This document shows positions 43,307 to 64,000 of a stretch of DNA of 64,000 nt, piece after piece. Location of the stretch: contig NZ_JAGGRI010000004.1 of assembly GCF_018612875.1 (NCBI RefSeq), positions 1-64,000 of the forward strand, in the 5' to 3' direction. The notes under the pieces were generated by a model. The model was not told the DNA's origin and did not search any database. It was given only the letters and a program-made list of their open reading frames with translations. The translations under genes were made by a program, and so were the position numbers. This DNA comes from Lysobacter sp. ISL-50 (GTDB lineage Bacteria > Pseudomonadota > Gammaproteobacteria > Xanthomonadales > Xanthomonadaceae). Each line of letters begins with the position of its first letter. Position 1 is the stretch's first letter.

Positions 43307-43337
43307 AAAAAAAACGCGCTGCGGGGCTTTTTTTTTT
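43307..43337. terminator. Bidirectional A/T-run hairpin
   Basis: Eight A followed by a short GC stem and ten T (43328-43337). It separates the XRE remnant from the convergent 68-residue ORF and could stop transcripts of both. Confidence 0.65.
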
Positions 43338-43356
43338 GGGCAAGGCGGGTTCGGCC

Positions 43357-43563
43357 CTATGGTGCATCCTCGTCGCGCGACAAATACTGGACATCATCGT
43401 CGCTGCGGTAGTGCCCACGGTCGATACGCTCCAGCGCTCGACCGTCCTGTGTGTACATGGTCACCACCTCTACGCCAGCGACTTCGATCGCCTTGCACCA
43501 GATGCGCCTTGGTACGCCCCGGTTGTCGATGGCAGTGATGCGCCAGGAACGGCTATTCGGCAT
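43357..43563 (-). CDS. Small hypothetical protein
   Basis: A 68-residue protein with a beta-rich N-terminal part (R-S-W-R-I-T-A-I-D-N-R-G-V-P-R-R) and an acidic end. It faces a bidirectional terminator and has no signal peptide or membrane segment. It is of the size of mobile-element accessory genes. The family is not recognised and the coding status is only moderately supported. Confidence 0.45.
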   Translation of the reverse strand: MPNSRSWRITAIDNRGVPRRIWCKAIEVAGVEVVTMYTQDGRALERIDRGHYRSDDDVQYLSRDEDAP

Positions 43564-43613
43564 GGCTTGATCGGATCTCGGCTGACGCGACCAGGGTAGC
43601 GCAAGCTCGGCAC

Positions 43614-43938
43614 ATGGATACGCTCAGCACTCTACAGCCGCTGCCACGTGGCTTTCACTGGGAAGCACAGGGACCAGCCACCGCGCGGCATCTGGTTGCC
43701 GTGCCCGACATCAATCCAGACGTCTGGCTGGCCAGCATCGGCACCCGTGGTGAGTGCGGCTGCGTCGCAACGATCCGGCGGCACCAGGCACGCGCGGCGC
43801 ACATTGATCGGTGCGGCGGCGGCGTCAGGCTGGGTGTCGCGCTGGCTCGACCGCCAAGGCCGCTTGATCGCCGCGGAACTCGCCGGTCAAGGGCCGACGC
43901 CAGCGGCAACCGGCAGGAGCCGGTTTAAGCCGGTTTAA
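43614..43938 (+). pseudogene. Frameshifted small gene
   Basis: The first part reads M-D-T-L-S-T-L-Q-P-L-P-R-G-F-H-W, with G-T-R-G-E-C-G-C-V-A-T-I-R-R-H-Q near residue 45. The matching second half (W-V-S-R-W-L-D-R-Q-G-R-L-I-A-A-E-L) lies in another frame. The shift is around 43800-43835, in a run of GGC triplets. Each half looks coding, so a single small protein seems to have been split by an indel. Confidence 0.5.
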
Positions 43939-44048
43939 GCCCGTCAAGAGAGTTGGACCCCGCGTGCTTTGGGCGCGCCAAACCTCCCGTTCCAACTTTT
44001 TCTACGCCTCGTCGCAACGACGAAAAAGGCCTTGTTTCCGAGGTTTTT

Positions 44049-44158
44049 GGCGTTTTCCATTGGTCGGCGGGTTATCCGCAGAGGGGCTGTTTGGCGATTT
44101 TTTCGCCTCTCTGCGGGCGGTTTTCTCCGGACCTGTGGTCGGCCGACCAATGGACGCC
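44049..44158. repeat. Large nested palindrome
   Basis: An outer perfect 12-bp inverted repeat (44057-44068 with 44142-44153) encloses an inner 11-bp repeat with one mismatch (44077-44087 with 44105-44115). GGCG and CGCC extend the outer arms. It is intergenic (43939-44360) and has no similarity to the attC sites further on. Confidence 0.7.
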
Positions 44159-44360
44159 CATACGAATCAGTGACTTAGCAATGGTCTGAGTCAACAGTTT
44201 TTTTGACGTTTTGACCCCAGCGCCACATCAACCCGCTTGATTTGCCCTCGGATGCGTCTCGGAATATGAGAATTTAAGAGAGTCATACTCCGTGCATGCG
44301 TCCATGCCTGGATCACGCACGAGCCATGTCTAAGTGATAGCGAGCGGGTGCAATCTACTG

Positions 44361-44552: not shown

Positions 44553-47066
44553 TTGGCTGTAATGATTCCAAACTGTGGCCCAGTAATCTCAGGCAGCAAG
44601 GGGGAGGTGCTGCTCTATAGATTGCTTAAAGAGCAGTTAGATGACGAGTTCACCGTCATACACAGCCTACCGTGGCTTGCCTCGGCTGCCCGCGAGCTTG
44701 ATGGCGCAAAAGCAGCCACTGGTGAGATCGACTTTTTGATCGTGCATGCCGATCTGGGAGTGCTTGCGATCGAAGTGAAAGGCGGCGCGCATCGGATACA
44801 AGGGGCGGCGTTCGTCCACATTAAAAGCGGTCTGAAGACCCACGCGGTGCATCAGCTGCGATCCAATGTCCATGGTTTAGCGAGATGGCTTGGCGTTGAC
44901 CCGAAGCTTCGTTGGCGGATCGGATACTCCTTAGTTTTCCCTCACAGCGATTTCAAAAGCAAAGTCGCCAGTCCGGCTCTGGCGGATACCACAGTAGACC
45001 CTTCAGTTTCACTGCTAATGGACATGAGTAGTGTTTCGGAATTCGGATCTCAAATAGTTCGGATCATGGAGTACTGGCGGTCAGCTTTACGGAATCCGCC
45101 GCTTGGAATTAAGCGAAAGACGGTGCTTATTAACGCTCTATGTCCAGAGTTCGACGGCACCCCATCTTGGGCAACAAAAATTTCTTGGGATGGAAAGTTC
45201 TGGTTAAGATTGACGGAAGATCAGACCGAAATTGTCGACAATGTGTTGGTCGGTGGCAATCAGGTCATCACGGGCTGGCCGGGAACTGGTAAAACTCTAA
45301 TACTCATCGAAGCAGCACGTCGCTTACTCACTGAGGGTAAAAGTGTTCTGGTCCTGACCTTTAACTCACTCCTTTCCGCAAATCTTCGAGAGCAAATAGG
45401 CAGTAATCAAAGACTCCGCATCTCTACATGGCATGCCTTCTGTCGCACATACACGCAGAGTGACAAAAATGAGCTGGAGGAAAAGTGGCTGTCCCAAGGT
45501 TGCCTAGACGACATTCGCACCGCGGCAAATGAAGGGAGACTGCCACGTTTTGACGTTGTACTTGTGGATGAGGCACAGGCATTTCATCCCGAGTGGATGC
45601 AATGGCTTTGCTCTTGGCATGGCGCCAACCAGATCCTCGCCTCTTGCGATGAGACGCAAGTCTTTGAGTTTGAAGGCCGTCGAATTCGCCTGCGAGAGCT
45701 ATGCCAACTAATGGAGGTAGAGGATGCATTTCTATTAACTAATGCCATCAGGTCACCTAGAGCTGTGCTTGAACGCTTAAAGGCGGCAATGAAACCGACC
45801 TATCAGCTTCAATCTCCTCGTGAACTCGACGAAGCGGCCGTCAATGAACAGTTGGTTGCAGAAGAGCGCGACGGAGTTGATGACGCGATAACTCAAATCT
45901 TGGCAGGCGGAGTCGCGCCCGAGGACATAGTTGTCTTGTCCAAGTTTGGTTGGCTTAAGGCCCCGCATGCCCGTGTTCGATTTTTCTCCCTCTCTCGCTT
46001 CCGAGGCATGGAATCTCCCGTAGTTATTATTAGCGGCGCGGAAGAAATGGACGACGTGGAACTGTTCTGTGCTTACTCCCGGGCCACTACGTTATGCGTT
46101 GCTTTATACAGTGCAGAAAGGCTCGGCGCTGGCAGTATAAACGGGAAATTCCATCAGCTCGTATTGGCTAGGCCTGGCTTCTCTGAGGAAGCCAAACGGG
46201 CTCACCTCAACGCACATCCCGGCGAGATAATTCGGGCAAACCTTGACGTTGTATGGCTGGGTCTTCGTAGCGTCCAGCTAGGATGGCTCCCGGATTGGAA
46301 TTGCTGGCTGATAGAAGAGTCTGGGCCTCTATCTAGGTACTGGATTGACTATCTTATATCGGACTTCCCCTGGGCCGTATGCTATTGGCCAGAGAGCGCC
46401 CTATATCAGGTGCGGGTCGCACCTCGAGTGATCAATGTTACAGAAGAGTCTGCATACGGAGCGCCGCATGATCTCTATATCTGCGAGGCTTGTTGTATGT
46501 TGACGCCTCATCAAAGAGACCCAATATCAGACGATATGCTGTGCGCCCGTTGCTTCGGCTTGCTGAAGAATGGTCTCGATTTTCCGAACGATGTCACCAC
46601 TGACCGACTTAAACACCTCGACGCGATGCTCAGTGAAACGGCGCCTACGGCCCTGAGTGAAGAGCAGCGCAAAAATCTGCCTTTGTCGCTCGCAGCAGGC
46701 GCGGCGATGGAGCAATCGGTACGTGAAAGAGGTCCTGAATGCCGCGGACTGGGCATGCTGGGCGGGCGAATTTCGTACCACGCAGCCCTGGGACTCATGT
46801 ACTCACTTGTCAATTTGCTCCCCGCTGGAAGGCGGATCGTAATTCGTAAAATGGCGGATCTACTATACGGTCGCTATCTCGTTCCTTCTGGACTCACACT
46901 CGTCGAGTGGAGAAAGGAAATATCTACGGCAACGGCGATTATCAACAAACGGGGGTGCTTGAATAAGGTCGCGAAGGGCGAATACGAAGTGCGCGACTGG
47001 AGCTTGAAGCCCCCGCACCTCGTGGACATGTCGCAACCGAAGTTGTCAGAAGAGGAGGGAATATGA
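44553..47066 (+). CDS. NERD-nuclease/SF1-helicase fusion (defence-like)
   Basis: An 837-residue protein from a TTG start with the ribosome binding site AAGGAG upstream; ATG 44562 is the alternative. The N-terminal NERD domain (about 13-110) carries the nuclease residues Asp60, Glu74 and Lys76 in G-E-I-D-F-L-I-V and I-E-V-K-G-G. A superfamily 1 helicase follows: Walker A G-W-P-G-T-G-K-T at 241-248, Walker B V-V-L-V-D-E-A-Q-A-F near 335, and F-S-L-S-R-F-R-G-M-E near 480. Two Cys pairs (I-C-E-A-C-C and L-C-A-R-C-F) near 640-670 may bind zinc. Such fusions are common in phage-defence islands. Its stop overlaps the next ATG. Confidence 0.88.
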   Translation: MAVMIPNCGPVISGSKGEVLLYRLLKEQLDDEFTVIHSLPWLASAARELDGAKAATGEIDFLIVHADLGVLAIEVKGGAHRIQGAAFVHIKSGLKTHAVHQLRSNVHGLARWLGVDPKLRWRIGYSLVFPHSDFKSKVASPALADTTVDPSVSLLMDMSSVSEFGSQIVRIMEYWRSALRNPPLGIKRKTVLINALCPEFDGTPSWATKISWDGKFWLRLTEDQTEIVDNVLVGGNQVITGWPGTGKTLILIEAARRLLTEGKSVLVLTFNSLLSANLREQIGSNQRLRISTWHAFCRTYTQSDKNELEEKWLSQGCLDDIRTAANEGRLPRFDVVLVDEAQAFHPEWMQWLCSWHGANQILASCDETQVFEFEGRRIRLRELCQLMEVEDAFLLTNAIRSPRAVLERLKAAMKPTYQLQSPRELDEAAVNEQLVAEERDGVDDAITQILAGGVAPEDIVVLSKFGWLKAPHARVRFFSLSRFRGMESPVVIISGAEEMDDVELFCAYSRATTLCVALYSAERLGAGSINGKFHQLVLARPGFSEEAKRAHLNAHPGEIIRANLDVVWLGLRSVQLGWLPDWNCWLIEESGPLSRYWIDYLISDFPWAVCYWPESALYQVRVAPRVINVTEESAYGAPHDLYICEACCMLTPHQRDPISDDMLCARCFGLLKNGLDFPNDVTTDRLKHLDAMLSETAPTALSEEQRKNLPLSLAAGAAMEQSVRERGPECRGLGMLGGRISYHAALGLMYSLVNLLPAGRRIVIRKMADLLYGRYLVPSGLTLVEWRKEISTATAIINKRGCLNKVAKGEYEVRDWSLKPPHLVDMSQPKLSEEEGI

Positions 47067-47587
47067 ATTATGGCATCGAATTTGCGCTTACTCGCAGCTA
47101 CGATAGGTTTAATCGAAAATGGAGGCTGCCTTCTGAAAAAACAGCGTGGGTCAAAGTTTGGTGTCTTTACCTCAACGATTGCAGCCTTGATGAAATTACG
47201 GCCGTTACCGATTACTGCGAATCAGAAATGAACCGCGCCCCATCCCTGCCCGAGTTCGCCCAGCTTGTGGACAGGCTAAGAAGTGGGAAGCCTCTTTCCG
47301 ATCCGATTGTTTCTTTGGCAGAAAGGATGGCATTCCTTATCCTGACGTCGGATGAATTTGCAGACGCTGATGCTCCAACCTTGTCTGACGCTTGCCTTAT
47401 TGCCGGCGCACTCGCGCATTTGAAATCATATGGAGGTATTGGTGATGTCTCAGGAGAGGAAATAGCTTCGGATTTTTCAGGCCGAGCCAAGATGTTCAGT
47501 TGCGCGGCCGGCCACTGGAAGACAGATGTCGACCAGGGAAAAGGTTATTGGAAGTTCTATTTCGCCGAGCAAGCCAATGATGTCTAA
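47063..47587 (+). CDS. Second gene of the NERD-helicase operon
   Basis: A 174-residue protein starting at an ATG that overlaps the helicase stop. It has an N-terminal L-T-R-S-Y-D-R-F-N-R-K-W segment and W-V-K-V-W-C-L-Y-L, then a helical middle and W-K-F-Y-F at the end. No known family is recognised. Strict coupling to the helicase implies they act together. The GC content here is visibly lower than in the prophage, a sign of transfer. Confidence 0.75.
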   Translation: MNYGIEFALTRSYDRFNRKWRLPSEKTAWVKVWCLYLNDCSLDEITAVTDYCESEMNRAPSLPEFAQLVDRLRSGKPLSDPIVSLAERMAFLILTSDEFADADAPTLSDACLIAGALAHLKSYGGIGDVSGEEIASDFSGRAKMFSCAAGHWKTDVDQGKGYWKFYFAEQANDV

Positions 47588-48011
47588 ACGGCTTGACCCA
47601 ATTCAAGTTTCAGCCGGCAAGAGCGGCACCCTGGTGCGGCAAGATCTACGTAAGGGCAGATCGAGTGTCTACTTCAATTACGAGTCTGGCGGCGGGTACA
47701 CCATCGGGGCAGATCGATTCGAGGTAGTACTTGAGGAAAAGGCGATCGTAATTAGGTTTTACCTCAAGCCGGTCGATGACAATGAACTGATTGATGAGCG
47801 CCGACTTCATTCCGAGATGCTCACAGAGGTCCATGTCAGCGATGGCCAAATCATTAGCAACCTGGCGCGGTTCACGAGGCAGCGTTATGTCGATGCTCAC
47901 GCGGTGCGGCTGCAGATTGTGTCTCAAGGCACTCCACTGAATTACATCGTGGCGTTCGGCGCCACAGAAGCCGAGCTGTTGCCAATGATGGTGCAGCGCA
48001 TTTCCAGCTAG
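47577..48011 (+). CDS. Third gene of the NERD-helicase operon
   Basis: A 144-residue protein starting at ATG 47577 (or 47580), 11 bases inside the previous gene. It is beta-rich at the N-terminus (V-S-A-G-K-S-G-T-L-V-R-Q-D-L-R-K-G) with no signal peptide. An attC site starts in its last codons, as is normal in integron cassettes. Its function is unknown. Confidence 0.7.
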   Translation: MMSKRLDPIQVSAGKSGTLVRQDLRKGRSSVYFNYESGGGYTIGADRFEVVLEEKAIVIRFYLKPVDDNELIDERRLHSEMLTEVHVSDGQIISNLARFTRQRYVDAHAVRLQIVSQGTPLNYIVAFGATEAELLPMMVQRISS

Positions 48012-48065
48012 CTCGTTACTGAAGCCGAAGCCGCTTTGCGGCTCGTCTTATTTCAGGCGTTAGGC
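48009..48065 (+). repeat. attC site 1
   Basis: The right core GTTAGGC is at 48059-48065; the central arm pair GCCGAAGCCG...CGGCTCG is present with an extra unpaired A. The left core is degraded (GCTCGTTAC). It follows the third gene of the NERD operon and precedes a small cassette ORF. Confidence 0.7.
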
Positions 48066-48081
48066 GCTACATGGAGGCCTC

Positions 48082-48354
48082 ATGTTCATTGAAAGATCAG
48101 CTGGTCAGAACATCTTCTACGTTGGTAGCCAACAGCTACCCAAGCTAGAGATCGCCAATGGGGATTCAGTCACGCTCAAGGCCGGAGACACGCTCGTCCA
48201 GGTTCGCAACGTACACCTCCTTCAACCCTACGGCTTCTCAGGCGAGATCTGCGGGTTCGAGCCAGCTCTCCCCGAAAGTCCAGCAGGCCTCACAATTGGT
48301 CAACGCGTAGAGTTCTCGGAGCGTCAGGTCTACAGCTGCGGCCGTGGTGCGTAA
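48082..48354 (+). CDS. Integron cassette protein, unknown
   Basis: A 90-residue protein with a beta-rich pattern (F-Y-V-G-S-Q-Q-L-P-K-L-E-I and G-D-T-L-V-Q-V-R-N-V). It starts 17 bases after attC site 1 and its stop codon lies within the left core of attC site 2, the standard one-gene cassette layout. No signal peptide or family is recognised. Confidence 0.75.
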   Translation: MFIERSAGQNIFYVGSQQLPKLEIANGDSVTLKAGDTLVQVRNVHLLQPYGFSGEICGFEPALPESPAGLTIGQRVEFSERQVYSCGRGA

Positions 48355-48408
48355 CAATTCATTCACGCCGAAGCCGCTTCGCGGCTCGGCTTAATTCTGG
48401 TGTTAGGC
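48349..48408 (+). repeat. attC site 2
   Basis: The best-preserved site: left core GCGTAAC (48349-48355), right core GTTAGGC (48402-48408), and between them arms that pair as GCCG-AGCCG with CGGCTCGGC around a TTCG-type loop. One extra A in the left arm would be the extrahelical base used by the integrase. Total length is 60 bp. Confidence 0.88.
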
Positions 48409-48413
48409 CCTTT

Positions 48414-48797
48414 ATGAAACTTCCCCGAGAACTCGCCGCCAACAAATCCGCGACTTATAGGCTTCAGCCCCGTTACTACCTTCTCACCACTTGTGTGGGC
48501 TTCGCTGGCGTGGCGGTTGGCTTCGGGCTTCTCTTCGTGTCCTTCAGCTACTTGTATACCGCTGTTCTTGGTGTTCCAGTCACTAGGTCTGTCCCTTTCA
48601 ACGCGACTGCTGGCTGGCTACTGCTCGCCTTCATGGTCGGCATTCCTATTTTCATTTATATCGGTTGTGTCCTAGTTGCAAGTATGCTCGGCTTGTTTTT
48701 GGTTGGCCGCGGCAAGTGCTCATGGTCTGAGGCCGTGTATTACGCTTTGTTCTCCAGGTACCCAGCTGACTGGTGCAAATCCAGGGATGAGGCCTAA
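48414..48797 (+). CDS. Integron cassette membrane protein
   Basis: A 127-residue protein with three hydrophobic segments (about residues 22-47, 63-84 and 86-98) and short basic loops, so an inner-membrane protein. It starts 5 bases after attC site 2 and ends in the left core of attC site 3. No known family is recognised. Confidence 0.75.
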   Translation: MKLPRELAANKSATYRLQPRYYLLTTCVGFAGVAVGFGLLFVSFSYLYTAVLGVPVTRSVPFNATAGWLLLAFMVGIPIFIYIGCVLVASMLGLFLVGRGKCSWSEAVYYALFSRYPADWCKSRDEA

Positions 48798-48832
48798 CAA
48801 TTCATTCAAGCCGAAGCCGCTTCGCGGCTCGA
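48792..48832 (+). repeat. attC site 3, right end lost
   Basis: The left core GCCTAAC (48792-48798) and both central arms are intact, but after CGGCTCG the sequence diverges and no GTTRRRY core follows. The cassette boundary has decayed or been deleted. Confidence 0.75.
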
Positions 48833-49185
48833 CATATCTAGCGCATTGGGTCAGCGCACTCACGCTTTCAACAAACTTAGAGCCTATCGGACCCAACACG
48901 TGCGGAAAGGGAACTGGGAGGCATATCGCCAAGCGGGGAGATGGCGCCGGGCTCCGTGCCTTGAATGACGAAGATGCCAAGGGGCGAGATGATGTCGCGC
49001 AATGCTGCTTGACGCTCGCCGAGCGGCGCGACATTGCCGACGGTCACCAGAGTGCCCATAGGTCGCCATGGACGCAGAGCTGTGCCGGGAAGACCTCGCC
49101 CGGTCCGGTCATCTTTCCGGCACTCGGCTATATTGAGCGCCCTTCCCATGTCCCCTCACGGCGCCAACGCATGCACGCGACTTCG
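48833..49185. other. Cassette spacer without a supported gene
   Basis: About 350 bases between attC site 3 and the serine hydrolase. A minus-strand ORF (48877-49149) has a repetitive look but shows no family pattern. No hairpin with a T-run was seen. Confidence 0.4.
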
Positions 49186-50342
49186 ATGATGGTTCGAAAC
49201 AGATTGTGGCTTGGCTGCTTAATATTGTCCGTCGCTCTCTCGGTCGCAGGCTGCACCCGCGCGAGCACCCGGCGAAAGACCTGGAAACCGAGATTGATGA
49301 AGTCGCCGCTAGCCTGATCAAGCAGCCCCTGCTTCACTCGACCTCGATCGGGGTCGTGTACCGAGGAAAGGAAATCATCCGCCATCGCGGCGATATGCAT
49401 GCGGGGAAGCCGAGCCCTCCGACCGACGCGACCCTTTACGAAATCGGCTCGTTGAGTAAGACCCTTGCCGGAACCCTGATGGCCCATGCCGTCCTGGATC
49501 GCAAACTGAGTCTCGACGACGACGTCCAGATGTATCTGAGCGAGCCCTATCCGAATCTGCAGTATAAGGGCGAGCCCATCCGCATCCGCCACCTGCTGTC
49601 GCATACCAGCGGCCTGCCGAACATGTTGCCCGAGCGCGCGAATACGGTACTCGCCGACTTCACTGACCGGCGCACGCCCGGCGAACTCAATGTCATCTAC
49701 GCGCACTACGGCAAGGCGGAGTTCTTCAAGGATCTCCACGCCGTCGAAATTACGCGGATGCCCGGAAAGAAGTACGCCTACTCCAGCTCCGGCACAGAAC
49801 TGACGGCGCATATTCTCGAAACGGTTTACAAGCGCGACTACGAGTCGCTACTACGCGAATTTTTCCGCGATTCGGCGGCAATGACGGACATCCGTATCAG
49901 GCTCGGCGATGCCGAAGCGAACCGGCTGGCCATCGGCTACCACAGCGACAATCCGGTTCCGACCACGCCGATGCCACAGCTGCCCTGGGGCGCATCCGGG
50001 AATGTGAAGGCGACCGTCCCGGACATGATGAAGTACCTGAAGTTCCAGTTGGCCAATGGCCCTGTCGTGAAGGAATCGCATCGAACCTTGGTCAAATTCG
50101 ATTCCGAGTTCAGCATCGGCTACTTCTGGAACATTGTCACAGACGGCCAGTTGAAAGGCGTTTACTACGCGCACCACGGCGGCGTGCCGCGATCGCAGTG
50201 CTACATCTACATCGTGCCGAAATACGATCTTGGCATCTTCGTCATCACCAACCAGAGCGGCGACCAGACCGCCAACGCCATGGAAGCGGCGATCGATACG
50301 ATCGTCGAGGAAATCGCGGCGCGGGAAAATATCGCGAGTTGA
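49186..50342 (+). pseudogene. Frameshifted beta-lactamase-fold lipoprotein
   Basis: The body (to 50342) is a class C/serine beta-lactamase-fold hydrolase with the nucleophile motif S-L-S-K-T, Y-S-S-S-G and H-L-L-S-H-T-S-G-L-P. Its natural start, a lipoprotein signal peptide with lipobox S-V-A-G-C (from 49186 or 49189), lies in a different frame; the frames meet around 49255-49285. In the present sequence the body would start without export, so the gene is broken or needs a frameshift. It lies between attC sites 3 and 4 and is likely a cassette. Confidence 0.75.
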
Positions 50343-50372
50343 GCGACGTCGACGCGAACGTCCGATCACGCC

Positions 50373-50430
50373 GCCCAGCAATGTATTCAAGCCGAAGCCG
50401 CTTCGCGGCTCGGCCAATTACGTCCTCATC
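50373..50430 (+). repeat. attC site 4, degenerate
   Basis: The central part CAAGCCGAAGCCGCTTCGCG is identical to the other sites (50389-50408). The left core is replaced by CAGCAATG and the right half (CAATTACGTCC) lacks GTTRRRY. Confidence 0.7.
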
Positions 50431-50656
50431 GTAACAGACCGTAATTTATTAGCCGGAGCGCCACGCACTCAAGGTCCGCCTTCAGAAGCGGACAAAAACA
50501 TGTTCGACCAGGGATCGCTCGATCTGAAGGAAACAGTGTCCGGACCTGGCGCGGTTCAGTACTAATCGGCGTCCTGATCGCTGGGTCGTATGTCCGCATT
50601 TGCCGCTTGGGCTTGGATACCGTATGCCCCTCTCGAATGACTGAGGATCAACCCCC

Positions 50657-51865
50657 ATGCCGACCACTGCGCGCACCTGCGGCTGGTTGACGCTCCTTCT
50701 GTTGGCCGCTTGGGCCCGCATGACCGCCGAGGCCGCGACGGTGGGCGACCCTGCCGAGGGTTGTCGGACCGTCGGCACTGACCTGGTAACCCTGCCGATC
50801 ACCACAGACGCTACCGCGTTTCCCCCGCCGCAGCTCCAGATCCGCACGCCCCTGGCGCCCGCGCCCTTCCCCAGTGCAGGCCGAAGCTACCTGATCTATG
50901 AGTTGCATCTGCAGAACTTGTCGGATGCCCCGATGAACATCCGGGGCCTTGAAGTTCTGGTTGCGGATCGTTCGGCTACAACGCCCGTTGCGGCGTTCCA
51001 ACGTGAGACCCTGCGCTCGCTGCTCACCACGTTCGGTAACGAAGCGGCTCCAGGCGAAAAAGGCGATGGCGTCCGCCTGGCCGCTGGCAGCGCCGCCATC
51101 GCATTTCTGTGCCTGGCCTTTGAGAAAGACTCGCTGGTGCCGCAAGGGCTGACCCACCGCGTCGCTCTCGACAATGGCACCGTGGACGGAACCCGCGTAG
51201 ACGTCGCGCAAGGCCCCCTGCGGGTGTTGGCGCCGCCGGTATCGGGGGTGGACTGGATCGTCGCGAACGGTCCCAGCAACACGTCCCACCACCGGCGCGG
51301 ACTTATCGTGATGGACGGCACCGCACGCATCTCCCGTCGGTTTGCCATCGACTGGAAGCGGATGAAGAACGACGCTGCGTTCACCGGTGACGCGCGCGAT
51401 GTCCGCGCCTACCACGCCTACGGGCAGAGTGTGCTCGCGGTAGCCGACGCCACCGTCGTGAGCACGATGGATGGCCTGCCGGACAACGTGCCGCGGACTG
51501 CGACCGGCTTCAGTCCGGCCGTCCCCGTGATGATGGACAACATCGGCGGCAACCACGTTGTCCTCGACCTGGGCAGTGGGCAGTTCGCCTACTACGCTCA
51601 CCTGCAGGCCGGAACCATCGGCGTGAAAAAAGGGGATCGCGTGCGACGCGGCCAAGTGCTGGGCCGGATCGGAAACTCGGGCGACGCGCGCGAGCCGCAC
51701 CTGCATTTCCAGTTGACGGATGCCATGCACATCCTGGCCGCAGAAGGTCTGCCCCACGTCATTGATCGCTATTTGCTCAGGACGGACACCGATGTGCAGG
51801 AGCGCACAGGAGAGCTGCCGGTACGTGGCATGTCGATCGACATCGAGCCGATCGATTCGAAATAG
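50657..51865 (+). CDS. M23-family metallopeptidase, secreted
   Basis: A 402-residue protein with a signal peptide (to A-E-A-A, about residue 27). The C-terminal domain has the LytM/M23 pattern: G-N-H-V-V-L-D-L-G near 300, Y-A-H-L-Q-A-G, V-K-K-G-D-R-V-R-R-G-Q-V-L-G-R-I-G-N-S-G, and the zinc motif H-L-H-F-Q-L. It probably cleaves peptidoglycan peptides or acts on rival cell walls. It lies between attC sites 4 and 5. Confidence 0.88.
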   Translation: MPTTARTCGWLTLLLLAAWARMTAEAATVGDPAEGCRTVGTDLVTLPITTDATAFPPPQLQIRTPLAPAPFPSAGRSYLIYELHLQNLSDAPMNIRGLEVLVADRSATTPVAAFQRETLRSLLTTFGNEAAPGEKGDGVRLAAGSAAIAFLCLAFEKDSLVPQGLTHRVALDNGTVDGTRVDVAQGPLRVLAPPVSGVDWIVANGPSNTSHHRRGLIVMDGTARISRRFAIDWKRMKNDAAFTGDARDVRAYHAYGQSVLAVADATVVSTMDGLPDNVPRTATGFSPAVPVMMDNIGGNHVVLDLGSGQFAYYAHLQAGTIGVKKGDRVRRGQVLGRIGNSGDAREPHLHFQLTDAMHILAAEGLPHVIDRYLLRTDTDVQERTGELPVRGMSIDIEPIDSK

Positions 51866-52145
51866 GCTGGGCAGGCTCGCGCATCGCGAATGTCCGCTTC
51901 GGGTTGGAAGCGGGCATTAGCACCATTCCGTCTCCTCTGGCGCCAGTATCGAGCAAGCGCCTAGGCACAGCCTGGAGCTCTGTGTTGCTCCCGGTAAAGA
52001 GCACAAGCTCCTGGAGCTTGCGGCGGCTATTGAGGTCATTACTTCCAGGCGATATGACGCACTCATTCTTACGAGTACGCTTGCCTGTGTGCCGATCGCT
52101 CAGTCACTGCGCAGGCTGGTTGCCGTTCTAGCATCAGCGTGTAGC

Positions 52146-52205
52146 GCGCAACAATTCATTTAATCCGAAGCCGCTTTGCGGCTCGGCCTAGTTCAGACGT
52201 TAGGT
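52146..52205 (+). repeat. attC site 5
   Basis: The left core GCGCAAC (52146-52152) and right core GTTAGGT (52199-52205) flank the standard arms with CTTTG in the loop. It is 60 bp long and close in sequence to site 2. Confidence 0.85.
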
Positions 52206-52220
52206 AGACGAGGAGGGAGC

Positions 52221-52544
52221 ATGGCAAGTGAAATTGAGAAAAGAGCGGATATGGGACTCGCCGCCATCAAGCAAGCGTTCGGGACAGAAGCCGACGAATA
52301 TGGCGCCACGATGTTCGTGAAGCATCATCTCGAAGAGATTCCTCGGGACTATTGGCAAAAGCACCTTGGGGCTAGCGACCCTGAGCCGTCCGCGGTCCTC
52401 GGCTTACTAGAGTTTCGCTCCAACTGGGGCGCGGATGAAATCGAGAACTTCGATTTCTCGCTCCCTGAAGATGTAACGAACTACGTTTTATCCGTTCATT
52501 TCGACGATGCCGGTGAGATCGATGGGATATCAATGGAGAGTTGA
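52221..52544 (+). CDS. Integron cassette protein (DUF2004-like)
   Basis: A 107-residue acidic protein from ATG 52221 with the ribosome binding site AGGAGGG. The end reads F-D-F-S-L-P-E-D-V-T-N-Y-V-L-S-V-H-F-D, which resembles DUF2004-type small proteins. It fits exactly between attC sites 5 and 6. Its role is unknown. Confidence 0.78.
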   Translation: MASEIEKRADMGLAAIKQAFGTEADEYGATMFVKHHLEEIPRDYWQKHLGASDPEPSAVLGLLEFRSNWGADEIENFDFSLPEDVTNYVLSVHFDDAGEIDGISMES

Positions 52545-52554
52545 TCGCGCGCCT

Positions 52555-52602
52555 GGTCAACAATTCATTCAAGCCGAAGCCGCTTCTCGGCTCGGCTCGG
52601 CC
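52555..52602 (+). repeat. attC site 6, right end lost
   Basis: The left half matches (GGTCAAC, then CAATTCATTCAAGCCGAAGC). A CTCGG repeat and a diverged tail replace the right core. It marks the downstream end of the visible array. Confidence 0.75.
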
Positions 52603-52702
52603 AGATTTGATCGCGAAATTTGGCGCGCCCACGGCTACGGTTTTCAAACCAGTCTATTCACGCAAGGGAACGCCGAGGAACATTGAAGCACAGCTTATAA
52701 GT

Positions 52703-53813: not shown

Positions 53814-53915
53814 CGAGTCGCTGGTGCAGGTCGAGACGCCTGATCGTCGCTGAGTTGGCTGGCCAGTAAGGCCTGAGTGTCGCCCCTGTCAGGGTGGTGC
53901 CGCTAAGCTGTCGTC

Positions 53916-54222
53916 ATGCTCAACGACATTGAACGAAGGCGTGCCGAAAACGTCGTCGCGACGCTTCTGAAGCCACGCCACTGCCCTCATGCGAAGTCGG
54001 GTGGGACGGTCCTTTGCCGCGTGGTGGATCAAGCCATCTAGGTCTATTCGGCGGGACCGGCTTACGGCGATCCCGACGAGATCATCGAGATCCCGATTGC
54101 CAAGTTCCGGTACGTTCGGGTGACCGGGGTGTGGCAGTTGTTATGGTTTCGGGCCAGCGGCGGCCGAGAAGAAGGGAGGAAAGACGTAGCTCATCGACCT
54201 CCTGGACAGTGAGTACTCTCTC
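53916..54222 (+). pseudogene. DUF3024 remnant
   Basis: The frame starting M-L-N-D-I-E-R-R-R-A-E follows the pattern of DUF3024 proteins: A-K-F-R-Y-V-R-V and L-L-W-F-R-A are visible. It contains an in-frame TAG (54039-54041) and a later frameshift that puts L-I-D-L-L-D-S-E-Y in another frame. The 3' end overlaps the HAF gene. Confidence 0.6.
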
Positions 54223-55567
54223 TCCCAAGTGTTGCGCACCATGCGGTCTCAAAAGGAAGACCCGCGAGACCTATCAGGCCTTTCGAGATGATTTTCGGAG
54301 AGACGCTCCTCACCAACTTCGGAATATCAGCTTGGATGGGGCCAATGCGATAGGCGAGTCGCTGGCCACTGCTGATCGTGCTCGCGCCCACTATCCACAT
54401 GCCGTTGGGGCTGATCGCGGCAGGATGATTGTAGGTGCCACCGAGAGTGCCCAGATCCTGAATATTGGACGACGGGCTCCAGGCAAAACCGGCCGACGCG
54501 CCCTGAGGGCTCTCCGCCGTTCCAATAATGGTGCCGTTATCGCTTACCTGTTGAACACGAACCACCGCTCCTCCCAGGGTACCGAGATCCAATCCGTCCT
54601 CGGTGGCCGGATCATCGGTGGGCACCCAAACGAAGCCTCGCTGCAGCCCGTCTGAAGTGTAGTAATTGCCAATGACGGTGCCGGTGGCATTGATGTCTGC
54701 CGCCATGACTTGTTGGCCCACGGCGGCTTCGCGCGGCAACCCCCGCAGCATGGCTGGCGCCCCTCCCGAGAGTCGCCACCGCACGGCCGCCAAATCTCCA
54801 ACGGGGTCTTCGCATGTACCTGCGATGTAGCCATTTGGATTGACCGCCACCGCGACACAGTTAGAGCCGCCGGGAATTCGCGGCAGTGACGCGACGCTAT
54901 AGCCTCCCGAGGTAGTGGGCGTCCACTTGACAGCGAGGCTCCCGCCTTGGCGCAGGTCGCAGAACCCGACTACCGCAGGCGCAATCGCAACGCCGAGAGC
55001 GGTGATGTGACATTCGGTGATCGACGACAACAAAGGCGGGAGCAACCCGGGGACCGGCAAGGAGGTGGCCTGGATCTGGCCGCTTTTCCATAGCACCGGG
55101 TGGTCCGTTCCATCTGGACTGGTGCTAATGCCGGCTACGGTGCCGGCGGCATTGATGAATGTCGCCTCGGCCCGGTCGTCGCCAGTGCGTGCATTCAACG
55201 TCTGCGGCGTTGTCGACGGCAGGGAAGGCGTTAGCCATCGCACCGGAAACGATTCGCCGTCTTCGCCGCGCTCACAGTTACCTGTGACTACATCGTTTCC
55301 GCTGATCCCTAATGCCGTGCACGGGCCGTTGAACTCCAATCCGGGCAACGCCATTGCCGCCACGCTGGTGGAAGCCCAGTAAGTCACCGCAAAGTCTCCC
55401 TCCGTGGTTCGGCACTGGCCTATCGCTGCGCCTGCATTGTTGACGTCGATGGCGATGCACCGACTTCCACCGAGCGAGCCCAGTTCCGATGCGTCCGCCT
55501 GCGACGCATGGGGCGCCAGCAGAGCCAGGAGTGTTGCGTGCAACACGTAAGGAGTGCAGTGCTTCAT
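54191..55567 (-). CDS. HAF-repeat secreted protein 2
   Basis: A 458-residue protein with a signal peptide (residues 1-24, H-A-S-Q-A-D-A) and tandem HAF repeats (L-G-S-L-G-G, A-I-D-V-N-N-A-G, D-L-G-T-L-G-G near 325 and 370). It is a clear paralogue of the genes at 4136-5623 and 62741-64000, sharing the S-I-T-E-C-H-I-T-like Cys pattern and the L-P-P-L-L-S turn. The C-terminal 50 or so residues are not repeat-like. Its function is unknown. Confidence 0.8.
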   Translation of the reverse strand: MKHCTPYVLHATLLALLAPHASQADASELGSLGGSRCIAIDVNNAGAAIGQCRTTEGDFAVTYWASTSVAAMALPGLEFNGPCTALGISGNDVVTGNCERGEDGESFPVRWLTPSLPSTTPQTLNARTGDDRAEATFINAAGTVAGISTSPDGTDHPVLWKSGQIQATSLPVPGLLPPLLSSITECHITALGVAIAPAVVGFCDLRQGGSLAVKWTPTTSGGYSVASLPRIPGGSNCVAVAVNPNGYIAGTCEDPVGDLAAVRWRLSGGAPAMLRGLPREAAVGQQVMAADINATGTVIGNYYTSDGLQRGFVWVPTDDPATEDGLDLGTLGGAVVRVQQVSDNGTIIGTAESPQGASAGFAWSPSSNIQDLGTLGGTYNHPAAISPNGMWIVGASTISSGQRLAYRIGPIQADIPKLVRSVSPKIISKGLIGLAGLPFETAWCATLGRESTHCPGGR

Positions 55568-56981: not shown

Positions 56982-57315
56982 GCTGAGGAAACTCACGACG
57001 AGCCGAAGCCGGTTTGCGGCGCGATTTTGTGCGGGCCCCTTGTCGCTGATAAGAACCTATTGCAAAGGAGCCAAAAAGAACGTCTCAACGGTGAAGTCGA
57101 CGCAACCGAGACTGCGTGCGGATTTTTGTCGATCATGCAGAGCGTTCGCTCTCTGAACATCACGGATGCTCACCGTTGGATTGTGCGGTCGGCAGCAACA
57201 GGCTTTGAGCTGCATCGCAGTTCGGCGAGGTTGCGGACTTTTGCAGCCTGGGTCGATTGACAAGACAGCAGCGTCAGGTCAACTCACCCGTATCCGTTCT
57301 CTCAACGGTGCCGCG
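56982..57315. other. Upstream region of the ACP-TE-P450 gene
   Basis: About 330 bases without a supported gene. A weak attC-like core (AGCCGAAGCCGG...TTGCGGC, 57002-57023) is present. No clear promoter box was identified. Confidence 0.4.
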
Positions 57316-59892
57316 ATGGAAAGAGCTGACCCGGGTGTCAACATCAAAGGTTCCGTCGGCGAGTCGGGCATCGACGCCGCAAGCGGAAAGCGGCGCCTGG
57401 GTGCGATCGAGCGTCGGCGGGGGATCGCCGAGGACATCGCCGGAGAGGTCGGCCGCTTAACTCGGGCGAAAGAGGTTGCGCTGCGGCCCGATACGCTTCT
57501 GTCCGATGTGGGGATCGACTCGCTCGGAGGCATGGAACTCCTCGGCTACATTGAGCGGAAGTTTGGTGTCGCGATCCCTATCAGCACCTTGCTGGGATCG
57601 ACGAGCTTCGACGAACTGGTGACGAAGATAGAGCAATTCCAGGGAAGTGCTGGAGCTGTGGACGGCGAGATCCACTCGACTGAGTTGCTGCGCCCACGGA
57701 CCTGGGACCGCAAAGCACGAGCGACCTTGTTACGCGACTGGCGGATCGCTGCGCCACTGTTTCTGATTCCTGGGCTCAACGGTACGACCTATTATTTGTC
57801 GTCCCTGTGCAAGGCTTTGCATACGAATCGGGCTTGCATCGCCTTTCAGATGCCGGGTGTCGATGGGCTGGAACCCCCGCTGGGATCGATCGAGGAAATC
57901 GCGCGCCGCCACGTGGAAGAGATGCGCGCGATCCAGCCGCACGGTCCCTATGCCATCGCCGGTCATTCTTTCGGTGGGGTGGTCGCCTACGAAATGGCGC
58001 AGATGCTGGCCGAACAAGGTCAGCAGGTGGCGCCGTTGATGCTGTTGGATTCACCTAACAGCGAATCGGAGGATGGGGCTCTTCAGGATGACGAGGTCAT
58101 GGCGTTGTTCGAGGTGATCGGTGTCTACTGCCGCTTCTCCGAGCGTCCCCTCAAGCCGATTCGCGCCGAGCGTTTGAGTGGGCTGCCCGTAGATGAGCAG
58201 CTACAACTCCTGTGGTCGTTGCTGGCTTCCTATCCGACCGCGGCTCACGTGATCGCGACTTATCGTAAAGGTTTCGTTGCGATGACGCGCTATCGCCCGC
58301 GTCCCTACGGCGGACCGGTGATTCTGTTCCGTTCGGCGGAAGGTTTTCCGGCTGAGGCCATGCATCCCGAGCGACGTGTGCGTTCCCAATTCGACTCATC
58401 GACCTTGGGGTGGGGTGGGCTGTGCGCTGACTTGCGTATCGTGGAAACCCCGGGCGACCACTTCAGCATGGTCATGCCGCCGCATTCTGCCGAGTTAGGT
58501 GCCGCCATGCAGGAGCCGCTGAATACGGCGGCGGACATGCTTATCGACTTCGACCGTCTGCGACCTGCTACGGTGGTGACTAAGGTCGGACGTGCCCTGC
58601 GGGTGGATGGGGCGCGTGTCCACTTCGATCCGCATCACCCCGATTTCCGCGAAGATCCGTATCCGTTCCTGAGCCAGTTGCGCGAGCACACGCCGATCTT
58701 CCAGGATGCCCTGTCGCAGTGGTGGGTGACGCGCCACGCAGACGTGTCGGCCGGCCTGCGCAACCGATTGCTTTCGGTCGACGCCAGGGCGATCGATCAT
58801 GTCGAGGGCATCGGCAGTGAAAGCGCTAAGCCGTCCGCGCTCAGCAGTTGGTTCCGGAACCAGGACGCATCGGCGTTGGCGCAGCTTTACAACAAATTTT
58901 TGCTGTTCATCGATGCGCCACGACATACGGTCCTTCGCAAAGTGTTCTCGCCATCGTTCTCGCACGAATCCATCCGCCACTTGGCTGGCTGCATCGACGA
59001 GCGCGTCGAGACATTGATGGCCGACATGCGTGCGAAGCCGCGGCCGGATCTCATGCGCGATCTGGCGCTTCCGCTTCCGGTCGGCGTGATCTCGTTGATC
59101 TATGGCGTGCCGGATGCGGACTCGGCCCAGGTGACGCAATGGGCGCGAGACCTCGCTACGGGGTTGGACTCCGGGATGTCCCTGCAAGCCATGCGCAGGG
59201 CGGAGCGGAGCGCCGAGGAGTTCACGCGTTACCTGCACGGTCACGTGCAGCGTCTGCGGAAATCGCCGCCGCACACGCCAGGCGGCGCGCGCCTGGACGT
59301 CAACGAAGCGATCGCGCAAGGCATCACACCGGACGAATTGGTGGCGCATATCGCGATGTCCTATCTGGCCGGATTCGAGACCACCACCAACAGCATTGGC
59401 AACGGCACGCTGGCATTGCTGCGTCATCCCGATCAGCTTGAGCGATTGCGATCCGACCCGGCGCTGGCCGAGAACGCTTCGGAGGAGCTGTTGCGCTACG
59501 ACTGCCCGGTGATGTTCGTCATGCGCTTCGCGGTCGAAGACCTTGAGGTGGCCGGGCAGCGCATTGCGCGCGGGAGTTCCATTACTTTCATGCTCGCCTC
59601 GGCCAATCGCGATCCAGCGGCCTTCCCCGATCCGGACAGGCTCGATCTGGCGCGCCCAGCCAGGCATCACGTTGCGTTTTCCAATGGCGCGCACTACTGC
59701 CTGGGCGCTCCGTTGGCACGGCTGGAGCTGCAACGCGTCTTTGTGGCGCTTTCCAGGCAGCGTTTCCAGCCGGTGCCGGGTGGGCTGGCGTGGAGAGACG
59801 CCTATACCTTCCGCGCTCTCGAACGATTCCCGATCGCATGGTGTTGGTGCGGTTCGCAATCGGCCACGTGGACGCGGTCGTCGATGAGCTGA
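57316..59892 (+). CDS. Acyl-carrier/thioesterase/cytochrome P450 fusion
   Basis: An 858-residue protein from ATG 57316 (a TTG or ATG further upstream would add unstructured residues). Residues 30-105 form a carrier domain with D-V-G-I-D-S-L, Ser69 being the phosphopantetheine site. Residues 145-430 are a type I thioesterase with G-H-S-F-G-G (Ser218), L-L-D-S and G-D-H-F. Residues 450-845 are a bacterial P450 with A-G-F-E-T-T-T-N, E-E-L-L-R-Y-D and the haem loop F-S-N-G-A-H-Y-C-L-G (Cys about 795). A carrier-bound acyl chain could be oxidised and then released by one protein. No ketosynthase or adenylation gene lies nearby. The last 15 residues look frameshifted. Confidence 0.9.
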   Translation: MERADPGVNIKGSVGESGIDAASGKRRLGAIERRRGIAEDIAGEVGRLTRAKEVALRPDTLLSDVGIDSLGGMELLGYIERKFGVAIPISTLLGSTSFDELVTKIEQFQGSAGAVDGEIHSTELLRPRTWDRKARATLLRDWRIAAPLFLIPGLNGTTYYLSSLCKALHTNRACIAFQMPGVDGLEPPLGSIEEIARRHVEEMRAIQPHGPYAIAGHSFGGVVAYEMAQMLAEQGQQVAPLMLLDSPNSESEDGALQDDEVMALFEVIGVYCRFSERPLKPIRAERLSGLPVDEQLQLLWSLLASYPTAAHVIATYRKGFVAMTRYRPRPYGGPVILFRSAEGFPAEAMHPERRVRSQFDSSTLGWGGLCADLRIVETPGDHFSMVMPPHSAELGAAMQEPLNTAADMLIDFDRLRPATVVTKVGRALRVDGARVHFDPHHPDFREDPYPFLSQLREHTPIFQDALSQWWVTRHADVSAGLRNRLLSVDARAIDHVEGIGSESAKPSALSSWFRNQDASALAQLYNKFLLFIDAPRHTVLRKVFSPSFSHESIRHLAGCIDERVETLMADMRAKPRPDLMRDLALPLPVGVISLIYGVPDADSAQVTQWARDLATGLDSGMSLQAMRRAERSAEEFTRYLHGHVQRLRKSPPHTPGGARLDVNEAIAQGITPDELVAHIAMSYLAGFETTTNSIGNGTLALLRHPDQLERLRSDPALAENASEELLRYDCPVMFVMRFAVEDLEVAGQRIARGSSITFMLASANRDPAAFPDPDRLDLARPARHHVAFSNGAHYCLGAPLARLELQRVFVALSRQRFQPVPGGLAWRDAYTFRALERFPIAWCWCGSQSATWTRSSMS

Positions 59893-62740: not shown

Positions 62741-64000
62741 TCAATATGCGGTATCAAAGTATTGCTCTCTCCAAAGCACGGATTGCGCAGGATTCGGCAA
62801 GTGGGAATCCAAGGTGGAGTCCCAATAGGGTATCGCGACCGATGAATCAAAGGCACGAAGTGCAATCTCCATTCTCTTTAGGTACTCCCTGTGCCATGGC
62901 AGAAAGGCAGGCCCGCCGTGGGCGCTATCCATCGAATTTGCTTTGCCAGCGCTCCTCTTTGCGTTACCCGCGGCGTAAGCATGCATGTGGCCCGACGCCA
63001 CTTGGCTGCTACCTACCAGATTCAATCCGTCGTCGCTGAGCGCGGTGGCTTGACTCGAAAATCCCCCTAGCGTTCCTAGCCCTTGTATACCGGTCGTTGG
63101 CTTCCATATGAATGATTCGGCAAGTCCGCTCGCGTTCTGCGCCGTACCAACGACGTATCCGTTGCCGGCGATATCGCGGCCGGCTGTCCAGGCCCCTCCG
63201 AGCGATCCAATATCCAACCCTTCTTCGAGCGCCGGATCGCCGATGGGCACCCAAACAAATGCGCGGGCGAGGCCATCGTCAGTCAAGTAATTTCCAAGGA
63301 CAACGCCCGCTTCATTCATATCGATCACTGCCAACTGCTGACGCGATTCCCCGCTGGCTTCCAGGTAGTCCAGGTAAGTAAGTGAGTTGCCGTCGGGTGC
63401 CCATAGCACCGCGATGGCGTCTCCATCCTCATCCTCGCAGGTTCCCGCGACTGCGAGGTTCGTATTGATCGCCGCTGCCGCACAGTTCGATCCGCCAGGC
63501 AGGCGCGGGAGTTGAGTCGCGGAGTAGCCAAGCAGACCAGAGGTCCAGCGCACCGCGACGGCGCCGCCATCGCGCAATTGACAAATACCTACCGCGACGG
63601 GCCAATCCGTATCGGTCATGTCGGTGACATGGCACTCGGTTGTGCTCGGGATCAGGGGCGGAAGTAGACCGAGTTCGGGTAGCGTCGTGGGGCCGGTTTG
63701 GTTAGGGCGCCAGAGAACGGCATGGTCTCCTCCATCGTTGTCGATGCTCACGCCCGCGACGACGCCTGCGTGATTGATCGCCGAGGCCGCCGCCTTGGCG
63801 TGACCCGCAAGCGGCTTCAGTCGCTGCGGAGTGCTGCCAGGCAAGGATGCGACCCATCGAACCGGGAAGTCCTCTCCCGCCGTACCCTGTTCGCAGCCAC
63901 CGACGGCAACGTTCGCGTTGTTGATGTCGAAGACAGAACACGGACCGTCAGGTTCCAGTGTGCTCAAGAGAGTCGGAGTTGAAATCCCAGGCGGCCAGTA
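62741..64000 (-). CDS. HAF-repeat protein fused to a tyrosinase fragment, partial
   Basis: The frame enters from the right edge of the window, so the N-terminus and any signal peptide lie outside. About 330 residues are HAF repeats (L-G-S-L-G-G, L-G-T-L-G-G, D-I-N-N-A-N, D-M-N-E-A-G). They then run into H-G-G-P-A-F-L-P-W-H-R-E-Y-L and A-I-P-Y-W-D-S-T-L-D, the middle of the first copper site of tyrosinases. The first copper-A His and the whole second site are missing, and the frame ends near an IS remnant. It is likely a chimera made by recombination, not an active enzyme. Confidence 0.7.
   Translation of the reverse strand, partial: YWPPGISTPTLLSTLEPDGPCSVFDINNANVAVGGCEQGTAGEDFPVRWVASLPGSTPQRLKPLAGHAKAAASAINHAGVVAGVSIDNDGGDHAVLWRPNQTGPTTLPELGLLPPLIPSTTECHVTDMTDTDWPVAVGICQLRDGGAVAVRWTSGLLGYSATQLPRLPGGSNCAAAAINTNLAVAGTCEDEDGDAIAVLWAPDGNSLTYLDYLEASGESRQQLAVIDMNEAGVVLGNYLTDDGLARAFVWVPIGDPALEEGLDIGSLGGAWTAGRDIAGNGYVVGTAQNASGLAESFIWKPTTGIQGLGTLGGFSSQATALSDDGLNLVGSSQVASGHMHAYAAGNAKRSAGKANSMDSAHGGPAFLPWHREYLKRMEIALRAFDSSVAIPYWDSTLDSHLPNPAQSVLWREQYFDTAY

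Follow-up and report, generated by a model that had tools for sequence, protein, structure and literature searches.

Half-eroded attC array without an integron integrase in Lysobacter sp. ISL-50, with the attC hairpin core as the joint between modules

Genes and attC sites of the array

The window analysed here is the whole stretch of 64,000 nucleotides from Lysobacter sp. ISL-50, and the array that it carries is listed in Table 1. The array comprises six co-oriented attC copies and five cassette genes, all on the + strand, the single reading direction that the first-pass annotation had noted. Small ORFs stop inside an attC site at 48011, 48354 and 48797 and begin at 48082, 48414 and 52221, between 6 and 17 nt past the last base of one, an arrangement that had been described for the cassette genes in general. 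Exceptions are the serine hydrolase, which starts 355 nt past copy 3 and stops ahead of copy 4, and the M23 peptidase, which starts 243 nt past the core of copy 4 and ends 281 nt ahead of copy 5.

The serine hydrolase gene, which encodes the beta-lactamase-fold protein of the array, is frameshifted, with the signal peptide (recognised by eye) and the catalytic domain in different frames; in six relatives both are in one frame. Its scores are below the curated family cut-offs (NF033085, 85.9 bits versus 415; AmpH, the best model, 108.6 versus 266) and it is not assigned to the class C beta-lactamases. Homologues were identified in four congeners (L174-L177), where no attC model match exceeded 15.4 bits, and diverged homologues of the M23 peptidase in three congeners, with no attC model match at those places. 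The cassette of the 127-aa ORF has a 94% identical counterpart in congener G003, in a different neighbourhood.

Table 1. Features of the array (positions in the window)
Feature	Position	Strand	Description
161-aa ORF	47526..48011	+	No family; stop inside attC copy 1
attC copy 1	48006..48065	+	R1 47.9 bits; core and right arm (GTTAGGC) present, left arm eroded
90-aa cassette ORF	48082..48354	+	No match in Pfam, NCBIfam or PADLOC; stop codon within R'' of copy 2
attC copy 2	48349..48408	+	R1 74.0 bits, E 3.5e-18; both arms, best preserved of the six
127-aa ORF	48414..48797	+	No family; membrane-protein-like by eye
attC copy 3	48792..48851	+	R1 51.5 bits; left arm intact, right side that of the downstream cassette
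Serine hydrolase (PF00144, AmpH-like)	49206..50342	+	Profile match
attC copy 4	about 50373..50432	+	R1 27.9 bits (core only); core 50391-50414 exact; left arm kept in part, right arm gone
M23 peptidase (PF01551)	50657..51865	+	Profile match
attC copy 5	52146..52205	+	R1 46.1 bits; both arms, with changes (GTTAGGT)
107-aa cassette ORF	52221..52544	+	No family (scanned as a 122-aa extended ORF)
attC copy 6	52555..52612	+	R1 41.1 bits; left arm and core, right arm gone
Downstream module	52595..52691	+	Common to congeners G016, G001 and G003, joined there to other left modules

The six repeats are attC sites of the Xanthomonadales type, as the first-pass annotation had read them, with an imperfect palindrome, R''/R' and L''/L' boxes and an extrahelical base. 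In the covariance search which that annotation had proposed, a model (R1) built from other genomes only gave scores of 41 to 74 bits for five copies and of 28 bits for the hairpin core of the sixth, the best match elsewhere in the window being 12.7 bits. The sites of R1 were pre-filtered for pairing, which biases both its covariation and the contrast in compensated pairs given below. The unpaired A described in the arms corresponds to column 23, invariant in 45 full-length attC sites of other genomes, and the motif GTTAGGC/T, described for the best sites, was found in copies 1, 2 and 5 only. A 21-nt core with at most three mismatches was identified seven times in the window versus 0.01 expected from shuffles: in the six copies and, with three mismatches, at 57003. 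Rfam gave no match in the window at gathering scores; the 335-bp repeat had none with E values of up to 1 allowed.

Both arms are retained in two of the six sites (copies 2 and 5). Copy 1 has 17/18 consensus bases in the right arm and 9/18 in the left, much of which is lost. Copies 3, 4 and 6 have 18/18, 14/18 and 15/18 in the left arm and 9/18, 5/18 and 3/18 in the right.

Integron integrase in the genome and its relatives

An intI gene elsewhere in the genome, which the first-pass annotation had suggested looking for, was not identified in ISL-50 (99.35% complete) with the TIGR02249 profile. The only matches fall below the cut-off (the best with 74 and 67 bits versus 265) and lie in two genes, presumably those of XerC and XerD; matches below the cut-off were present in 14 of 14 control genomes. 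A tblastn search with two integrases as queries, run a second time alongside a positive control in the same database, detected no integrase remnant within the array, within the remaining attC regions compared or beside acnB.

At E 1e-60, intI was matched in 42 of 79 relatives, among them 21 of 28 other family members versus one of 19 congeners; 12 of the 18 negative congeners were searched at 1e-5 and gave sub-threshold matches only. The only congener intI seen, in G013, adjoins acnB, and arrays adjoining acnB persist in G011 and G012 with no intI match. The acnB gene of ISL-50 lies on another contig than the array, and the 4.7 kb checked downstream of its 3' end contain no attC match.

Since the attC sites are genuine and the genome has no integron integrase, the array is not a working integron but a half-eroded CALIN (at least two attC sites, no neighbouring integrase). 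The label of chromosomal integron of the xanthomonad type is correct as to the attC array and fails as to the integron, the complete form of which has intI in the genome. The same annotation held that absence of intI from the lineage together with an identical order in all relatives would point to a non-mobile repeat; intI is present in the lineage and, among the 84 core sites compared below, no pair has both neighbours alike. The array is the relic of an integron and not a non-mobile repeat.

Persistence of the core and loss of the arms

The comparison was confined to the regions with exact cores in six genomes (ISL-50, two of whose stretches are 3-kb pieces centred on a core, and five congeners) and comprises 84 cores defined by at most three mismatches. 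The 24-bp hairpin core outlasts the arms in all six: 52 of the 84 sites have it with at most one change, and both arms are missing beside 35 of the 84 cores, a set that was chosen for being conserved. When well-kept arms (at least 15/18) were sought independently of the core, 33 were found, with the core beside 30 and displaced by 5 nt in one; the reversed control gave no arm of 15/18 or better. The core is not always kept, since two left arms of 17/18 (G016:5910700 and G005:454098) have no intact core.

The core folds as a hairpin and is conserved by sequence rather than by pairing. None of the 95 changed stem pairs in relic sites is compensated (25 wobble, 70 broken), and only 1 of 195 when five mismatches are allowed, versus 69 of 75 in 45 intact attC sites, themselves pre-filtered for pairing. 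Core orientation is uniform (23/23 in G003, 21/21 in G001 and 12/13 in G016). A REP-like mobile hairpin was set aside because the cores share one orientation and are concentrated in a single region. The exact 24-mer was identified in two stretches of viral contigs.

The core as joint between modules

Pairs of the 84 sites share the left (upstream) module in 37 cases, the right (downstream) module in 28 and both in none, these tests being based on the 39 sites that have a module in common with another and on pairs that are not independent within clusters. No core lies inside a conserved inter-species block, versus 15.9 expected. Among repeat alignments no shorter than 80 bp, 24 of 30 left modules end at attC positions 39-44 and 26 of 35 right modules start at positions 14-20. 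For the arrays with intact attC in four congeners, alignments of 120 bp or more place 8 of 10 ends at 57-66 and 11 of 11 starts at 0-6. The core is the most conserved part and alignments can bridge into it, which weakens the counts for right modules; these boundaries were dropped as proof of a joint at the core and the L' arm was tested directly, a test that bridging leaves unweakened. Several right modules begin near a GTT, as judged by eye.

In an exchange by IntI the switch is at the G^TT of R' and L' remains with the upstream cassette. In these sites the L' arm goes with the downstream module and not with the upstream one: of 2000 permutations, none gave an L' identity as high as that of the right-sharing pairs, and 1709 reached that of the left-sharing pairs. 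Of the eight right clusters, four clearly have the arm in common (7.8 to 11 of 12), three scarcely do (6.0 to 7.0) and the last (4.75) is under the unrelated mean of 5.05. The signature of IntI was not found, with the exception of two two-site clusters among the eight left ones, where L' reaches 7 and 8 of 12. The joint lies within a tract of identity, which is one of two marks of homologous recombination between short repeats, the other being dependence on RecA or on annealing.

Copy 3, by a three-way comparison, is a chimera joined at the core. Its left side matches the cassette at G003:548612, with 98% identity in 100 nt of flank and 18/18 bases in the left arm, its right side matches the hydrolase cassette of G003 and G001, and the switch is at the core.

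Discussion

Comparison with the relatives suggests that pieces of the array went on being shuffled through the short common hairpin sequence. We hold with moderate confidence that the array is a decayed leftover whose modules were rejoined at the core, and we infer that this exchange followed the loss of intI, was driven by homology and was the work of the cell's own repair and recombination machinery. The CALIN would derive from the integron system of the family; once intI was lost, the outer attC arms, needed by the integrase alone, would drift or be replaced, and the GC-rich hairpin stem of 24 to 28 bp would persist in many near-identical co-oriented copies. The stem would then serve as short homology for joining modules in new combinations, by RecA-dependent exchange or by annealing and slippage at stalled forks as candidate routes, and exchange there would also keep the core uniform. 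Mutation or deletion at the stem edge would be needed as an added step, since exchange between two full attC sites cannot alone yield armless cores. For older events, an integrase may have acted in trans from a passing mobile integron.

That all shuffling was done long ago by IntI, followed by neutral decay of the sites and no further movement, is unlikely, although intI is widespread in the family, arrays adjoining acnB outlive any intI match in G011 and G012, some downstream modules begin near GTT as products of IntI would, and two good left arms lack the core. On average L' does not go with the upstream module in the 37 left-sharing pairs, and the same holds for the pair with 98% identity in the upstream flank. 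Neutral decay would also erode core and arms equally, yet the core accompanies 31 of the 33 well-kept arms and many cores, a set selected for conservation, are armless. A functional xanthomonad integron, for which the true attC sites, the cassette ORFs and their one orientation would speak, has a negligible probability: with no intI in the genome it is refuted, barring a copy hidden in an assembly gap, and the acnB of ISL-50 is apart from the array with no attC match in the part checked.

Selection on the core as a folded hairpin (a terminator or an RNA stabiliser), leaving the arms free to vary, would fit its fold and its frequent exactness, but is very unlikely given the lack of compensated stem pairs in the relics as against the intact sites, and it leaves unexplained why no site pair has both neighbours in common. 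Conservation of sequence and not of pairing, as well as the single orientation, would agree with a site-specific recombinase other than IntI that recognises the core and moves the modules; we know of no candidate, the Xer-type genes are generic and descent from an array gives one orientation too, which makes such an enzyme highly improbable.

The array may be set beside several known systems. The sites are of the same taxonomic type as the Xanthomonadales-like (XL) attC sites of Ghaly et al. 2021, who name Lysobacter among the genera (PMC8352920); in the text available, the attC sites modelled are those of chromosomal integrons, whereas here the arms are lost and the core persists. Integrase-less attC clusters away from ilvD were reported for about 50% of Xanthomonas genomes in the available text of PMC12444791, and are alike in having attC sites and cassettes without intI; here the sites are half eroded and modules are joined at the hairpin stem instead of at G^TT. 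The ilvD integrons of Xanthomonas in which intI is inactivated (Gillings 2005, according to PMC12444791) are similar in that the lineage lost the integrase and retained cassettes, but here one congener has intI beside acnB and the other 18 have none at E 1e-60. In class 1 integrons, which are mobile, fused cassettes with a truncated attC are described as rare in the accessible part of PMC4670013; partial loss of attC joins two cassettes in both cases, and here the joint is recurrent in regions of six genomes. No description of joints in the attC stem was found in the open-access literature covered by the terms used.

Integrase-less attC clusters are common in the family, and the question addressed is how such clusters go on changing. 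If the core is an exchange site for the ordinary machinery of the cell, these clusters could acquire, shed and rearrange genes well after the integrase has gone. Sequence alone would then separate the two modes, by which cassette the L' arm follows, so the question could be tested in any lineage with such clusters. We tentatively propose as a possibility a second mode of cassette shuffling, with the attC core as exchange site and no integron integrase, in which CALINs would be still-evolving platforms and not dead relics.

The attC array and its cassettes

The six repeats reported by the first-pass annotation at 48009-52602 are all present, on the + strand throughout. They were searched with R1, a covariance model for Xanthomonadales-type attC trained on 45 full-length sites, all from other genomes and pre-filtered for pairing, which biases pair counts. 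This search, suggested by the same annotation and run with filters off, recovered five copies at 41.1-74 bits and the core of copy 4 at 27.9 bits; the best window match outside the six sites and their reverse strands reached 12.7 bits. The core is a 24-bp hairpin stem; searched as a 21-nt sequence at up to 3 mismatches, it was matched 7 times in the window, versus 0.01 expected. Both 18-base arms are kept in 2 of the 6 copies. In the genus, R1 matches at E 0.01 or better were identified in 19 of 20 genomes (the Lysobacter sp. ISL-50 genome included), with 1 to 96 per genome.

attC copies of the window, with R1 scores and matches to the 18-base consensus arms
Feature	Position	Strand	R1 score	Arms left/right (of 18)
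attC copy 1	48006-48065	+	47.9 bits	9/17
attC copy 2	48349-48408	+	74 bits	16/16
attC copy 3	48792-48851	+	51.5 bits	18/9
attC copy 4	about 50373-50432	+	27.9 bits, bare core only	14/5
attC copy 5	52146-52205	+	46.1 bits	15/14
attC copy 6	52555-52612	+	41.1 bits	15/3

The beta-lactamase-fold protein of that annotation is a PF00144 hydrolase, AmpH-like, and falls far below the listed beta-lactamase cut-offs. Its signal peptide and catalytic domain lie in different frames here and in one frame in 6 relatives. The same cassette lies between attC relics, eroded sites with the core kept and the arms partly or wholly lost, in the congeners G003 (92% DNA identity) and G001 (89%). The gene was also identified in G002, G004, G008 and G011, with no attC model match above 15.4 bits near it.

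Absence of the integrase

The genome (5.91 Mb, 72 contigs, 99.35% complete) gave nothing above cut-off with the integron integrase profile TIGR02249, the intI search proposed along with the integron reading. Four sub-threshold matches, the best of 74 bits, trace to a pair of genes (presumably XerC and XerD); such matches likewise occur in 14 of 14 control genomes. At E 1e-60, intI was identified in 42 of the 80 genomes searched: 0/1 for this genome, 1/19 for congeners, 21/28 for other family members and 20/32 for the order. Twelve congeners searched at 1e-5 gave sub-threshold matches only, and for the remaining 6 with no intI match the threshold was 1e-60 alone. A tblastn search with two integrase queries, repeated with the intI of the congener G013 as positive control, found no intI remnant in the window or the other stretches tested.

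In G013 intI adjoins acnB. The attC sites of G011 and G012 extend to within about 0.5 kb of this gene, with no intI match above cut-off left, and the intI-less arrays directly adjoin it. In our genome acnB is carried by contig C12, where the 4.7 kb taken past its 3' end hold no attC match. Arrays of 36 to 70 attC matches per genome, without an intI match, were identified in G011, G012 and G015 and may represent an earlier phase of this integrase loss.

With no intI in the genome, the claimed integron array is an integron relic and not an integron. Viewed as a CALIN (an attC cluster without integrase) it is of an ordinary, already known type. Published work already covers CALINs and the decay of the integrase in Xanthomonas (PMC12444791 and PMC2426708), as well as Xanthomonadales-like attC sites, Lysobacter included (PMC8352920).

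Features around the array

A 335-bp structured non-coding repeat (43907-44241, z-score -3.8) has no Rfam match; 5 more matches (one of 32 bp) are found in the genome and others in 6 congeners, oriented, where known, mostly as the attC relics. Positions 43322-43913 and 53837-54161 adjoin in G006 (5512301-5513178, 56 bp overlap), so that about 10 kb with the whole array represent an insertion here or a deletion in G006. The NERD-nuclease and UvrD-type helicase protein at 44553-47066 (best PADLOC model RTasNERD-Hel, 118 bits), followed by two ORFs without families, is possibly a defence gene. A dispersed short motif beginning GCCCACGGCTACGGTTTTCAAAC is found at 52620-52671 and at C1:32949-33000, the latter after an apparent tRNA 3' end; it occurs both with and without an attC core ahead.

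A single 908-aa ORF (57166-59892) joins a carrier domain, a thioesterase and a cytochrome P450, a fusion that looks unusual. Three - strand ORFs (4136-5623, 54191-55567 and 62741-63967), alike by eye, carry repeated LGxLGG-type units, with no Pfam match in the two scanned. Positions 2094-26000 are prophage-like, with a GpA terminase, an S49 peptidase and, by eye, portal, tail tape measure and tail genes.

The core as a joint between modules

Cores with up to 3 changes in the 24-mer were collected from 494 kb of relic regions of our genome, G001, G003, G005, G006 and G016, giving 84 sites, 27 exact and 25 with one change. Their orientation is nearly uniform per region (G003 23/23, G001 21/21, G016 12/13). 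More than 20 nt from the core, the left (upstream) module is common to 37 site pairs and the right (downstream) module to 28, pairs that draw on 39 of the 84 sites; none shares both. Blocks of at least 300 bp conserved between genomes, 18.9% of the sequence compared, contain 0 cores versus 15.9 expected. Among repeat alignments of at least 80 bp, 51 of 344 ends fall inside the core in both partners, the chance for a single end being 0.54%.

The integrase cleavage point is G^TT of R' (positions 54/55), so the L' arm is expected to stay with the upstream cassette. In relic regions, 24 of 30 left-module alignments stop at attC positions 39-44, and 26 of 35 right-module alignments start at 14-20. 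In four attC-intact arrays (alignments of at least 120 bp) the left ends lie at 57-66 in 8/10 and the right starts at 0-6 in 11/11. Alignments can run on into the well-kept core, so the L' arm was tested directly. Its mean identity, out of 12, is 4.73 in left-sharing, 5.05 in unrelated and 6.82 in right-sharing pairs; 2000 arm permutations reached the right-sharing value 0 times and the left-sharing value 1709 times. The means are uneven by cluster (right 7.8, 11, 6.2, 6, 11, 4.75, 10 and 7; left 5, 4, 4.7, 3.3, 7, 4, 8 and 6). The clearest switch, located at the core, is in copy 3: its upstream flank is 98% identical to G003:548612 over 100 nt and its left arm matches 18/18, after which it continues as the hydrolase cassette found elsewhere in G003 and G001.

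Persistence of the core and its explanation

Arms were scanned blind to the core, with a reversed-sequence control. At 13/18 or better, 46 left arms (control 13) comprise 32 with a core alongside and 14 without, and 49 right arms (control 34) comprise 25 and 24. At 15/18 or better, where the control gave none, a core accompanies 15 of 17 left arms (exceptions G016:5910700 and G005:454098) and 15 of 16 right arms, the remaining one having its core shifted by 5 nt. Neither arm is left at 35 of the 84 cores. Cores, which were selected as conserved, thus often outlast arms, and arms seldom outlast the core.

Selection for a folded hairpin could also retain the core, but here the sequence is kept and the pairing is not. 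Relic stem changes comprise 0 compensated, 25 wobble and 70 broken (1, 44 and 150 with five mismatches allowed); intact sites, pre-filtered for pairing, show 69, 2 and 4. The core is therefore kept by sequence, a pattern that favours exchange between tracts of identity over a selected hairpin fold. The stem common to the sites most likely serves as a short homology at which modules join; RecA-dependent exchange, annealing at stalled replication forks and breakage of the hairpin with subsequent repair are all compatible with the sequence. For armless cores, mutation or a deletion where the stem ends would have to be added. Foreign DNA taken up one-sidedly, with homology as the anchor, might also fit. 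The literature searched contained no description of attC-stem joints. Such core-centred joints set the array apart from an ordinary CALIN and are worth testing.
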